This document shows positions 4,539 to 7,630 of a stretch of DNA of 21,938 bases, piece after piece (position 1 is the stretch's first letter; each line of letters opens with the position of its first letter). The notes beneath the pieces are model-generated. The model was not told the DNA's origin. It was given only the letters and a program-made list of their open reading frames with translations, and made no database searches. The DNA comes from a virus, in the IMG/VR virus record IMGVR_UViG_3300046804_000907, positions 1-21,938 of that record. One strand, given 5' to 3'. The position numbers and the translations under genes are program-made.

Positions 4539-4984
4539 ACCAAGAACTCGTAACCATTCCAAAGTCGGACATCAGCAAGGCTGACATCGCCGACATCGCT
4601 GCTAACCTCATCCTCCGAATAGAGGAAGGAGAGGTCAATCCCATCGCCGCCCATGTGCGCCTCAAAGCCGTTGTCAAAGCCGTTGAGCAGGTCCTCAAAG
4701 CCACCGAGCAAACGGTGTGGGATGAAGCCGAAAAGAACGGCAAGACCTTCTCCGCATTCGGTGCTGACATCCAACTCAAGGAGGGGGCGATTACTCCCGA
4801 CTATTCGCACGACCAAGTTTGGAGTGACCTGCAAGCCTCCATGAAAGCGAGGGAAGAGCAACTCAAGATGGCCTTCCGCAACGCTGGCAAGATGACGGTC
4901 ATTGACGAAGCAACTGGCGAGGTCGTTCCTGTATGTCCCGCAAAAGGCACAAAACCATCCATTTCTGTGACTTTTAAGGGATGA
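4535..4984 (+). CDS. Conserved phage early protein, helical (149 aa)
   Basis: A 149-residue protein. Residues 16-70 are helical (LILRIEEGEVNPIAAHVRLK), then a beta-like turn around FGADIQLKEG, then a helical segment around VWSDLQASMKAREEQLK and a basic end. The layout resembles a common Bacteroidota phage protein of unknown function found among replication genes. A Gam-like host-nuclease inhibitor is another possibility raised by the long helices and the neighbouring annealing protein, but I see no decisive motif. It is ATGA-coupled to genes on both sides. Confidence 0.55.
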   Translation: MNQELVTIPKSDISKADIADIAANLILRIEEGEVNPIAAHVRLKAVVKAVEQVLKATEQTVWDEAEKNGKTFSAFGADIQLKEGAITPDYSHDQVWSDLQASMKAREEQLKMAFRNAGKMTVIDEATGEVVPVCPAKGTKPSISVTFKG

Positions 4985-5253
4985 TACAACCAACACCACC
5001 CAAGAAGAAGAAAGGCGTGCAAAAGATTGGCAGGGTGGCGGGATTACAAGCCGCCATCCTGCTCCTTGAAAAGCCTTACAAGGCAAAGGAGTTAGCCAAA
5101 GTCCTTGGGATGCATATGCGCATCACCTATCGTATTCTTGATGACCTACGGGCTACAGGACACCTTTACTCGCACCGTTGCTATTACTGGTTCGACCCCA
5201 AAAAGAACAACGACCTCCAACATTTAATTCCAGTCAAAGACCCTTATCTTTAA
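4981..5253 (+). CDS. Winged-helix DNA-binding protein
   Basis: A 90-residue protein with a Lys-rich N-terminal tail (PPKKKKGVQK) and a probable winged helix-turn-helix at residues about 20-70: KAKELAKVLGMHMRITYRILDDL has the spacing of a helix-turn-helix with recognition helix MRITYRILDDLRATG. The wing is suggested by LYSHRCYYWFDP. This fold binds DNA, so a regulator of the early operon or a replication accessory is likely. The target is unknown. It is ATGA-coupled to the previous gene, with an 18-base gap before the SSB-like gene. Confidence 0.6.
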   Translation: MIQPTPPKKKKGVQKIGRVAGLQAAILLLEKPYKAKELAKVLGMHMRITYRILDDLRATGHLYSHRCYYWFDPKKNNDLQHLIPVKDPYL

Positions 5254-5271: not shown

Positions 5272-5517
5272 ATGAGCAACTACACCCCACAACCCAACAC
5301 CTTCTCCCTGTTCGCTAACGACAAAGGCGACAACCCCAAGCGTCCTGACTACAAGGGCGACATCATCCTGCCCGATGGCACTAAGATGCGCCTGTCCGCA
5401 TGGGTGCGTGAATCCCAAGGCGGCAAGAAGTTCCTGAGCGGCAAAGTCGAGCCGATGCAGGACCGCCAAGATTCTGCACCATCACCACAAAAAGATGGAG
5501 ATGACTTGCCATTTTAG
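5272..5517 (+). CDS. SSB-like / DUF736-like protein with acidic C-terminal tip
   Basis: An 81-residue protein. The N-terminal part (SLFANDKGDNPKRPDYKG, then GDIILPDGTKMRLSAWVRES and GGKKFLSG) matches a small beta-rich DUF736-like family common in phages, shorter than a full OB-fold SSB. The C-terminus ends in DGDDLPF, very like the DDIPF/DDLPF tip by which bacterial SSB recruits partner proteins. Its place just before the replication genes supports single-strand DNA binding. The small size and absence of a complete OB fold are odd. Its stop codon lies inside a 13-base tandem repeat (5509-5534), next to the promoter of the following leader. Confidence 0.6.
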   Translation: MSNYTPQPNTFSLFANDKGDNPKRPDYKGDIILPDGTKMRLSAWVRESQGGKKFLSGKVEPMQDRQDSAPSPQKDGDDLPF

Positions 5518-5534
5518 TGTACCATTTTAGTGTA
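5509..5534 (+). repeat. 13-bp tandem repeat CCATTTTAGTGTA x2
   Basis: Two perfect adjacent copies at 5509-5521 and 5522-5534. The first copy encodes the final Pro-Phe-stop of the SSB-like gene, and the second runs into the TAACTTTG box. It may be a recent duplication or an operator for a regulator acting on the downstream promoter. Confidence 0.7.
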
Positions 5535-5540
5535 ACTTTG
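5533..5540 (+). promoter_or_regulatory. Candidate promoter (-7 box TAACTTTG) of the leader RNA
   Basis: TAACTTTG matches the Bacteroidota TAnnTTTG consensus exactly and is identical to the box at 3220-3227. A TTG at 5506-5508 could act as the -33 element, but the spacing of 24 is slightly long. Transcription from here would begin near 5547 and produce an RNA of about 114 nucleotides if it stops at the terminator at 5626-5660. Confidence 0.6.
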
Positions 5541-5660
5541 CACGAAATTCACATTTACCAATAAAGGCGGTTTGCTGAAGTAGAGGTCAGCAAGTCGTTT
5601 AGAAAAAAGGGTACATCTTAACCCTGCCCCGACTGCCTCTACCAGTTGGGGCTTTTTTTT
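5541..5660 (+). ncRNA. Structured leader RNA with kissing-loop potential
   Basis: No ORF fills this stretch. It folds into three hairpins. H1 pairs 5565-5578 with 5587-5600 (14 continuous pairs, four of them G-U; the inner TTGCTGA/TCAGCAA is perfect) around an 8-base loop. H2 pairs 5608-5612 with 5621-5625 (AGGGT/ACCCT, 8-base loop). H3 is the terminator at 5626-5652, directly abutting H2. The H1 loop bases 5580-5586 (GTAGAGG) are perfectly complementary to the whole H3 loop 5636-5642 (CCTCTAC). With CAG 5588-5590 and CTG 5633-5635 a longer alternative pairing is possible that would break both stems. It could be a free small RNA or an attenuator for the replication operon. Confidence 0.65.
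5626..5660 (+). terminator. Strong intrinsic terminator upstream of the replication initiator
   Basis: GCCCCGACTG (5626-5635) pairs with CAGTTGGGGC (5643-5652), ten pairs with one G-T, around a CCTCTAC loop, and is followed by eight T (5653-5660). It ends four bases before the ATG at 5665, so transcripts reaching the initiator from upstream must read through it. Confidence 0.9.
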
Positions 5661-5664
5661 ACTC

Positions 5665-6369
5665 ATGAAACAAATATCATGGTTTAAGTTCTGCCCAGCC
5701 GATTGGATGATGGGCCGAATCTCACGGCAACCCGCCGAGGTGCAGGTAGCCTTCATCCGACTTTGCTGCGTCTATTGGAACGCTGAATGCGAGATGTCAA
5801 CCGAGCACGCCGAACTGGAAGCCGATGGGCATCTGCAAAGGCTACTGCAAACCCGTTTGGTAGAAACCAATGGTCCGTCCGTGTTTATCAAATTCCTTGA
5901 CATTCAATGGGAAGACGCAAACCTGCACCGTACCAAGATGTCCGAAGCAGGGAAAAGAAGTGCCGAAAGAAGGTCAACTAAGGTTGAAGAAAATCCAACT
6001 AAGGTTGAACCTATGTTGAACCTACCTTCAACCTATGTTGAACCTACGTTCAATAGAGAAGAGAAGAGAAGAGAAGATAAGAGGGAGAAGAAAGATTGTG
6101 TCCTTTTTGACCAATTTTGGGCCTTGTATCCGCGCAAGACCTCCAAGCAGTCCGCACTCAAAGCCTTCGCCAAGTTGAAAGATGAAGACCAGCAGAAGGC
6201 TATCAACAACGTTGCACGCCTCTACTCCGATACCCCCGTTGAGTTTATTCCCCATGCCGCAACCTACCTGAACCAAGCCCGATGGGAGGACCAAACCATT
6301 ATCCGTGGCAATACTTTTGCAAAACCACTAAACCAAACCGATGACGCAGACCTACCTCATTTCCGCTGA
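5665..6369 (+). CDS. Replication initiator / O-like replisome organiser
   Basis: A 234-residue protein. The N-terminal domain (about 1-95) begins WFKFCPADWMMG, a pattern typical of phage replication initiator and DnaD/DUF1376-like proteins. The linker (about 103-145) is repetitive (TKVEENPTKVEP) and then strongly charged (REEKRREDKREKK). The C-terminal domain (about 147-220) has FDQFWALYPRKTSKQSALKA and HAATYLNQARWEDQ, common in phage O-like and DnaC-recruiting proteins. It precedes a DnaB-like helicase with a 29-base overlap. Its linker DNA contains iteron-like repeats, as in lambda O, so it probably binds its own gene as origin. It starts right after an intrinsic terminator, which implies attenuation control. 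Confidence 0.7.
   Translation: MKQISWFKFCPADWMMGRISRQPAEVQVAFIRLCCVYWNAECEMSTEHAELEADGHLQRLLQTRLVETNGPSVFIKFLDIQWEDANLHRTKMSEAGKRSAERRSTKVEENPTKVEPMLNLPSTYVEPTFNREEKRREDKREKKDCVLFDQFWALYPRKTSKQSALKAFAKLKDEDQQKAINNVARLYSDTPVEFIPHAATYLNQARWEDQTIIRGNTFAKPLNQTDDADLPHFR
5974..6095 (+). other. Candidate replication origin: iterons plus purine tract
   Basis: Inside the initiator gene lie two perfect CAACTAAGGTTGAA copies (5975-5988, 5996-6009; 21-base period) and two perfect 18-base copies of AACCTATGTTGAACCTAC (6008-6025, 6030-6047; 22-base period). All are built on a GTTGAA core that also occurs inverted (TTCAAC 6027-6032, TTCAA 6049-6053). The 22-base period is out of codon phase, so the identity cannot be a protein repeat. 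A 41-base run that is purine except for one T follows (6055-6095), a candidate unwinding or asymmetric element. The arrangement recalls lambda ori inside gene O. Confidence 0.6.
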
Positions 6370-7630
6370 ACGCAGGCTCCTGTCCTGCCTGATGGATTCC
6401 TTTATTGACCGTGCATCCCTGCTGATGCAGATTCCCGAAAGGTTGTTCACAGGGAATAACGTCTTCATATACCGAGCCATTGAAGCCCTTCACCGGGCAG
6501 AGCGGCCCGTGGACTTGGTAACCGTTCACCAACAACTTGTCAGCCAAGGTCAGGCGTTTGTAGTCATTGAACTCGCAAACGTAGCCGATGGCATTACCAT
6601 CACATCGGACTGGAAGACCTACGCCGCAGACTTGAACCAAGCGTGGAAGGTAAGGGAAGAGCAAGCTATTATGGCAGACCTTGCCGTTGACCGGGACATT
6701 CCAAGAGCATTCGCACGCTACCAAGCGATGCAGGCCGTGGAAACCAATGCCTCCGAATCAACCGCTCATGAACTCGCCAAGGACTACTTGCTCAACATGA
6801 ACGAAGTCCGGGAAGGAAGGCGCAAGGATTCTATCTATCCCTGCTACATTGCACCAATAGACCGAATGTTTACTGGATTTAAGCCATCCGAGTTTATTCT
6901 TCTTGGTGGTCGCCCTGCAATGGGTAAGACCCTGCTTGCCTTGCAAATCGCCATGAACCAAGCCATGGCTGGCATTCCTGTGGTGTTCTTTAGCCTTGAA
7001 ATGAGTGCAGACCAACTGACCCAGCGGATGCTTTCTAACTTGGCCGAGATGGATGGGGCATCGTTTCTAAACCCAAGCGAAAGGATAGGCGACGACGAGT
7101 TTCTAACGCTTGCCCAAAAAGCGGACCTTCTAAAGTCAAAGCCCCTGTACATCGTGGACCTCCACCAAGCCAACCTTGACCGCATCGAAGGCGAAATCGC
7201 AAAACTCAAAACCAAGTACGGAGTTTGCGGATTCTACCTTGACTACCTGCAACTGGTAGAGCCAACAAAGATGGACAAGCCCAAACCTAAAATTGAGCAG
7301 ATGACCAACATATCCAAGACCCTTAAATCTATCTGCAAGCGGCAGAAGGTGTTTGGGGTCGTGGTGTCATCCCTATCCCGTGCAACGGAAGGCAGGGCAG
7401 ACCATCGGCCAATCATGTCCGACCTGCGAGAAACGGGGCAACTTGAGTTTGATGCGGATAAAATTGCGTTTGTTTTCCGACCTCACCAACACGACGATGC
7501 AAAACCCGAAGATTTGATGGAGGTCATCGTACGCAAGAACCGAAACGGTATGCTTGGTATCGCAGACATCCAATGCCATCTTCCATTCACCAAAGCCAAC
7601 GAGTTCCCACCAAATAGAATCGATTTATGA
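6341..7630 (+). CDS. Replicative DNA helicase, DnaB family
   Basis: A 429-residue DnaB-type hexameric helicase that unwinds the replication fork 5' to 3' using ATP. The N-terminal helical domain (about 1-100) starts with SAERRLLSCLM, like DnaB. The RecA-like domain holds Walker A GGRPAMGKT (189-197), the DnaB segment FFSLEMSADQL, Walker B GFYLDYLQLV (297-306, D301) and a C-terminal SDLRETGQLEFDAD with arginine-finger-type motif. The length is close to bacterial DnaB (about 450-470). No loader gene is evident; the upstream initiator probably recruits it. It overlaps that gene by 29 bases, with CTAAACC at 6328-6334 before the ATG, and is ATGA-coupled to the nuclease. Confidence 0.92.
   Translation: MTQTYLISAERRLLSCLMDSFIDRASLLMQIPERLFTGNNVFIYRAIEALHRAERPVDLVTVHQQLVSQGQAFVVIELANVADGITITSDWKTYAADLNQAWKVREEQAIMADLAVDRDIPRAFARYQAMQAVETNASESTAHELAKDYLLNMNEVREGRRKDSIYPCYIAPIDRMFTGFKPSEFILLGGRPAMGKTLLALQIAMNQAMAGIPVVFFSLEMSADQLTQRMLSNLAEMDGASFLNPSERIGDDEFLTLAQKADLLKSKPLYIVDLHQANLDRIEGEIAKLKTKYGVCGFYLDYLQLVEPTKMDKPKPKIEQMTNISKTLKSICKRQKVFGVVVSSLSRATEGRADHRPIMSDLRETGQLEFDADKIAFVFRPHQHDDAKPEDLMEVIVRKNRNGMLGIADIQCHLPFTKANEFPPNRIDL

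Follow-up and report, generated by a model that had tools for sequence, protein, structure and literature searches.

Covarying loops of an upstream hairpin and a terminator hairpin in a phage leader RNA ahead of replication genes

In ColE1 (RNAI/RNAII) and R1 (CopA/CopT), hairpin loops pair fully and changes in the loops make new specificities, and the attenuator of pT181 precedes a replication initiator. The pT181 leader is described as containing kissing hairpins and an intrinsic terminator, its 5' attenuator hairpin being targeted by a complementary antisense RNA (PMC4878617). In the account of satellite phage P4 given in PMC4825925, the CI RNA is a prematurely terminated leader ahead of replication genes, with segments that are complementary within the same leader. 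The pRNA of phi29, as presented in PMC12670572, contains a pair of complementary loops within the one RNA, covarying between phages; they pair by three to four nucleotides, and the RNA forms rings on the packaging motor. For the cobalamin riboswitch, the L5-L13 contact is described as an intramolecular kiss of an upstream hairpin loop with the loop of the expression hairpin (PMC10907184).

Layout and predicted fold of the leader

The leader analysed here belongs to a 21,938-nucleotide stretch of viral DNA (IMG/VR record IMGVR_UViG_3300046804_000907, positions 1 to 21,938), the whole of which is called the window. It occupies the gap between an SSB-like gene and a replication initiator and consists, from 5' to 3', of a -7-type promoter box, hairpin H1, hairpin H2 and an intrinsic terminator:

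5272-5517, plus strand: SSB-like gene, directly upstream of the leader (PHROG 18154, E 3.5e-8; TAG stop 5515-5517)
5531-5553, no strand assigned: dyad TGTAA-N13-TCACA over the promoter, a candidate operator with putative function
5533-5540, plus strand: -7 promoter box TAACTTTG, Bacteroidota type TAnnTTTG
5565-5600, plus strand: hairpin H1, stem 5565-5578/5587-5600 of 14 pairs, 8-nt loop 5579-5586 AGTAGAGG
5580-5586, plus strand: kissing segment 1, GTAGAGG, in the H1 loop
5608-5625, plus strand: hairpin H2, between the kissing hairpins, stem 5608-5612/5621-5625
5626-5660, plus strand: intrinsic terminator, 10-pair stem 5626-5635/5643-5652, 7-nt loop, eight-U run 5653-5660
5636-5642, plus strand: kissing segment 2, CCTCTAC, the whole terminator loop
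5665-6369, plus strand: replication initiator gene (PHROG primosomal/replication initiation families), ATG at 5665, 4 nt past the U-run
6341-7630, plus strand: DnaB-type replicative helicase, the next operon gene (Pfam DnaB_C, E 6.8e-60)

Hairpin H1, its 8-base loop containing GTAGAGG and the strong terminator, all pointed out in an earlier sequence-only reading, were recovered at the same positions in the predicted fold. The window leader has a minimum free energy (MFE) of -39.9 kcal/mol (z -4.25), and none of 200 shuffled sequences was as stable. The perfect complementarity that the same reading had seen between the H1 loop (5580-5586) and the terminator loop (5636-5642) is exact in the window sequence, each segment being the reverse complement of the other, and is upheld by the relatives described below. 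By arithmetic, the chance of an exact 7-mer match in one given 8-nt loop is about 2 in 16,384, odds that would be raised by the many other places at which a reader may look. A 30,785-base contig (L002) carries the same initiator and leader as the window. Free duplexes of the kissing segments are predicted to be stable (-7.5 to -17.3 kcal/mol), which would also suit an element that merely compacts or protects an abundant 3' end and switches nothing; such an element leaves the location ahead of the replication genes unexplained and is considered improbable.

The leader had not been matched to any named RNA family, and this was borne out by Rfam 15, which gave no match at the gathering threshold in the window and six related loci. 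Below threshold, the window leader scored highest with Spot_42 (25.9 bits versus 80), which was rejected as a generic hairpin-terminator resemblance, and the sub-threshold matches look like chance. Nothing like the window leader appeared in the part of a 2010 survey of 104 candidate RNAs that was available (PMC2864571), and no paper in PMC, a scope that most subscription papers fall outside, describes the leader by title or abstract.

Relatives of the leader and their genomic surroundings

Relatives were gathered through the initiator gene, the terminator-stem pattern, SSB (the best 80 of 225 and the best 80 of 233), DnaB (the best 80 of 229) and a loop-agnostic pattern of H2 and terminator. 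There were 361 loci with an SSB match, many of them overlapping pieces of one contig, and the 343 that could be parsed represent 140 distinct combinations of SSB and leader, with 97 distinct leaders. The 18 unparsed loci comprise five split terminators, seven loci in which another gene follows SSB and the leader lies further on, one locus without a stop, and five isolated-phage regions. A first set contained 62 distinct leaders, a count that omits the split leader of L254. The element is single: each of 24 records gave a strong model match at one place only. Three weak matches to model R1 about 3 kb downstream were rejected as second RNA copies, since they fall in a helicase-like coding region (frame shown for G011), and pattern matches L279, L292 and L319 were dropped as coding or unrelated sequence. 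With model R1 the leader was not found in five regions of isolated phages with 34-51% similar SSB, in L068 and L069 (distant initiators) or in L040.

Inserts split the terminator in L040, L041, L253, L254 and L278. The L040 insert (2238-2966, 729 bp) lies in the terminator loop and contains, by eye, a DNA-methyltransferase-like frame; when joined, the terminator halves match the uninterrupted terminator of L263. Rfam gave no match in L040.

The -7 box, which had been reported at the start of the piece 5541-5660, is present but lies just before 5541, at 5533-5540, after the stop of the SSB-like gene. Its sequence TAnnTTTG, which we take to be the Bacteroidota-type -7 promoter consensus, occurs near the start of 94 of the 97 distinct leaders. 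It is absent in L306, L263 and L271 (whose leader is the same as that of L118); the kiss, as the loop-loop pairing is called here, is intact in L263 and L271/L118 despite the missing box. No clear -33 element was seen by eye in the window. In 90 of the 97 distinct leaders TGTAA is followed by TTACA, CTACA, ATACA or TCACA, with a spacing of 13 in 89. The small protein encoded at 4981-5253, for which no Pfam or PHROG match was found, could conceivably read the dyad, as a guess. A tandem duplication of CCATTTTAGTGTA lies at 5510-5535 of the window and, by eye, also in L002, L003 and the L051/L104 contig; it is absent from most relatives printed.

SSB lies directly upstream of the leader in the parsed loci, and the replication modules downstream, which start 3-10 nt past the parsed U-run, vary: initiators like that of the window (MKQISWF/MKNISWF), a relative beginning MENSWYKH, a DUF6291 protein, and a VapE/PriCT_2 primase. 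Identical loop types precede different replication modules. Three leaders are followed by another gene (DUF4326 in L114), 12-20 nt away, before the replication gene, and in three leaders the automated gene choice took a 61-residue overlapping frame. In L321, L326, L327, L330, L335, L363 and L385 a small gene (MQYIAKIWKL... or MDTYIAKIWKL...) directly follows SSB, and the leader pattern is elsewhere in the same loci. None of 16 records, possibly fragments, contains a tyrosine integrase (PF00589), and scans of bacterial genome contigs with SSB and DnaB confirmed no relative, as from prophages or hosts; the uncultured carrier phages are therefore probably lytic. Judged by promoter type only, the hosts would be Bacteroidota.

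Within the initiator gene of the window, five 25-nt repeats resembling GTTGAACCTA, in both orientations, lie in register at 5975-6053 with spacings of 21, 11, 11 and 11. By eye they are also present in L005, L008, L040 and L044, not in L047, and are possible origin iterons. A long purine-rich tract (AGAGAAGAGAAG...) follows them directly at 6054-6094.

Pairing of the two loops among relatives

In all 62 distinct leaders of the first set, the terminator loop (with its closing bases) can form 6-10 consecutive Watson-Crick pairs with an upstream segment that, judged by the printed flanks, sits in the H1 loop. Among the parsed loci, 342 of 343 have a kiss of at least 6 pairs. The loop-agnostic scan listed at least 102 loci, with a match of 8 bp in 93, 9 in 5, 5 in 2 and 4 in 2, both 4-bp matches being unrelated sequence. 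The terminator loops of the first set fall into 17 types, a few of them close to one another. With one representative per type, loops of the same type match by 6-10 bp (mean 7.6) and loops of different types by a mean of 3.4; only 12 of 272 cross-type pairs reach 6 bp, some of them between near-identical types. When the types were re-paired at random, none of 100,000 permutations reached the observed match sum. Two exceptions have 5 bp: L306 joins the H1 loop of one type to the terminator of another, with its downstream gene open over 205 codons, and L363, near a contig end and with an intact -7 box, has a single base change within the kiss, which then consists of 5 bp, one mismatch and a further two pairs.

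Alignment and covariation were based on 46 of 48 distinct cores, L107 and L132 being omitted for an H2 insertion. MAFFT puts the loops of L114, L117, L156 and L263 out of register, so that they are scored partly unpaired. The kiss is paired in 93.6% of cells, the terminator stem in 99.8%, and the H1 upper stem, in which 6 of 7 pairs have changed on both sides, in 74.5%, with some rows of the alignment out of register. Both H1 and the terminator stem also covary. In the kiss, 82 cells have changed in both partners, compared with 29.6 for shuffles (none of 500 reached 82), and the covariation score is 0.602 against 0.192 +- 0.021 (0 of 500 shuffles reach it; the shuffles ignore relatedness), with slid controls at or below 0.129. 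The numbers of kiss pairs with double changes and of further pair types were not in excess of the shuffles (347 and 292 of 500, respectively). Bearing on relatedness, the leaders of L149 and L133 show no difference at 112 positions outside the kiss; inside it 5 of 16 positions differ, as two compensated pairs and one lost end pair. The H2 combinations and the SSB tree given below bear on relatedness as well. Since relatives have changed both loops together into many matching pairs, the pairing matters, and the comparison of homologous leaders proposed with the original observation found it kept through compensatory changes. To judge from these alignments, the kissing pair is a selected RNA feature.

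The two segments also form an interrupted inverted repeat in the DNA sequence, as would a protein or recombination site with no RNA feature. A purely DNA-level site is very improbable, as the stems keep pairing through many G-U pairs, possible only in RNA (64 of 459 paired cells in the terminator stem), the segments fall in hairpin loops, and the core sequence is not conserved. The complementarity and covariation of two loops of one RNA, as in phi29 pRNA (PMC12670572), would also fit copies joined hand in hand, loop 1 to loop 3, as dimers or rings that serve a structural purpose or bind protein. The predicted fold here is of hairpins in series, without a three-way junction, and one of the paired loops belongs to a transcription terminator that precedes replication genes; such multimers are accordingly given little credence.

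Between the kissing hairpins, H2 mostly keeps GGGT/ACCC and has a variable apex, giving 29 H2 types in the 97 leaders. One H2 type is combined with five terminator-loop types, each of three further H2 types with two or three, and across the H2 types shared by several loop types the loops still match, except in L306. Among pairs of leaders with the same H2, 228 have both loops the same and 259 both different; as H1 was labelled by its match to the terminator loop, these counts restate the complementarity and are no independent test of it. The kissing segments are 43-53 nt apart in 95 of the 97 leaders and 82-83 nt apart in two with an enlarged H2 apex. L107 and L132 share this enlarged apex but differ in loop type, so that a module has been exchanged within the leader.

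Loop words recur outside the leader in 10 records, in no common place, and in some records exceed the uniform-base expectation (in G012, 7 and 9 places against about 2; in G007, three occurrences of a 9-mer against 0.1). A third pairing site elsewhere in the phage was rejected, the contexts in five of the 10 records searched being unrelated between loop types. The one shared outside place (G001 and G004, of the same type) falls within homologous coding sequence.

Possible action on read-through and comparison with known systems

The start codon of the replication initiator lies right behind the U-run and no promoter fits between, so this gene would be read from read-through RNA, and because it depends on that RNA, the hairpin with kissing segment 2 would be its gate. 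The reading we favour, at a little under an even chance, is that the leader RNA ends mostly at the terminator and that the kiss between the H1 loop and the terminator loop tunes read-through into the replication gene. Transcription would start at the promoter at 5533-5540, and most of the leader RNA would terminate ahead of the replication operon. The H1 loop would kiss the loop of the terminator hairpin and thereby tune read-through of RNA polymerase, most likely because it captures the terminator loop as this is being made, ahead of the 3' arm, so that read-through is favoured. The short terminated leader would accumulate and compete for the same loops in trans, giving a type-specific feedback.

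A stem-breaking alternative fold, extended by adjacent CAG/CTG bases, had been proposed as a possible antiterminator. The two triplets are indeed at 5588-5590 and 5633-5635, but the extension is not conserved and is special to the loop type of the window; the only further kiss pair that recurs in relatives is column 36 with column 91 (C-G or U-G in 43 of 46 rows). At full length the alternative reaches only -30.0 kcal/mol against -39.9, but when the transcript ends at 5645, with only three bases of the terminator 3' arm out, the fold that pairs both loop segments is the MFE structure. An attenuator is favoured because the loop-pairing fold is the MFE early and the terminator wins by about 10 kcal/mol at full length, and in these predictions an antiterminator role within a kinetic window is possible. 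Against an attenuator, terminator hairpins close very fast, and a kiss formed afterwards may be too late to prevent closure. The broken kisses of L306 and L363, the three leaders with another gene before the replication gene, the split terminators and the two covariation measures no higher than in shuffles also weigh against it. At 2.8 A per pair and 6 A per nt, the 14+7+10 stacked pairs span, by arithmetic, about 87 A and the 7-nt linker plus H2 about 60 A; the linker being short for the stacked span, the full kiss within one molecule would need fraying or bending.

Covariation looks alike for pairing within one RNA and between two molecules. A possible but on balance unlikely alternative is therefore a self-specific RNA acting in trans: a released leader would bind same-type leaders of other phage copies and so signal dosage or superinfection, and the loop types would resemble immunity or incompatibility groups. 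The strained geometry in cis, the near absence of G-U pairs from the kiss (4 of 293 paired cells) when they are common in the terminator stem (64 of 459), and the 17 largely orthogonal loop types would suit this, as would the finding that a single metagenome, 3300020043, contains at least five of the types (L009, L058, L128, L061 and L062). Loop type is also nearly unlinked from the adjacent SSB gene: three identical SSB sequences each carry two loop types, and on the SSB tree (134 rows) loop type changes at least 79 times, a count that is soft because the tree is short, against a mean of 87 and a minimum of 80 in 200 sets of shuffled labels. That short tree, however, and the mosaic nature of phage genomes weaken the point; pairing in cis is strongly favoured by local concentration, a search for a separate antisense gene found none, and overall the loops are not hypervariable. 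Among 20 nearest pairs chosen to be disjoint, the divergence per site was 0.043 in the loops, 0.021-0.028 in the stems and 0.066 in the linker and H2, which leaves diversifying selection on the loops unsupported; pairs picked for different kisses give 0.232 versus 0.153, a biased choice. More speculative, and rather doubtful, is RNA-only self-recognition in lytic phages, in which the two loops of each phage's terminated leader would fit only their own type and resident leader RNA would control replication entry of same-type genomes and ignore others, with loop-defined incompatibility groups reassorting as cassettes. The 17 natural loop types offer a ready panel with which to ask if the specificity of RNA loops could serve phages as an incompatibility code, and they may supply orthogonal attenuators.

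The favoured reading, control of read-through by the kiss, can be set beside the systems named at the outset. In ColE1 RNAI/RNAII and R1 CopA/CopT the partners are two separate complementary RNAs, whereas here they belong to one RNA. The pT181 attenuator, which likewise combines kissing hairpins with an intrinsic terminator, appears closest in attenuator logic; an antisense promoter of the pT181/ColE1 type was unseen in the leader bodies, the minus-strand -7 box (CAAAnnTA, one consensus) being absent from 97 of 97. The cobalamin riboswitch would be the closest in intramolecular kissing with an expression hairpin, as an upstream loop here would also kiss the loop of such a hairpin. It differs in its conserved aptamer core, of which no Rfam match gave any sign here, and the loop sequences of the leader differ freely between types. 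The pRNA of phi29 is closest in having a complementary, covarying loop pair within one RNA, but the leader pairs mostly by 7-9 bp, is predicted to have three hairpins in series and no three-way junction, and has a terminator and a replication operon. In place and logic, the closest known system is, by analogy, P4 immunity, whose CI RNA also precedes replication genes and has internally complementary segments. It differs in that the leader pairs a hairpin loop with the loop of the terminator, in that Rfam gave no match (the c4-type antisense RNA is RF01695), and in that a PF00589 integrase was seen in none of 16 records, possibly fragments. The leader represents a well-supported RNA family, unmatched in Rfam, in which an upstream hairpin and the terminator loop make a covarying contact at the gate of phage replication; it belongs to the kissing-loop leader RNAs, in a family new to Rfam.
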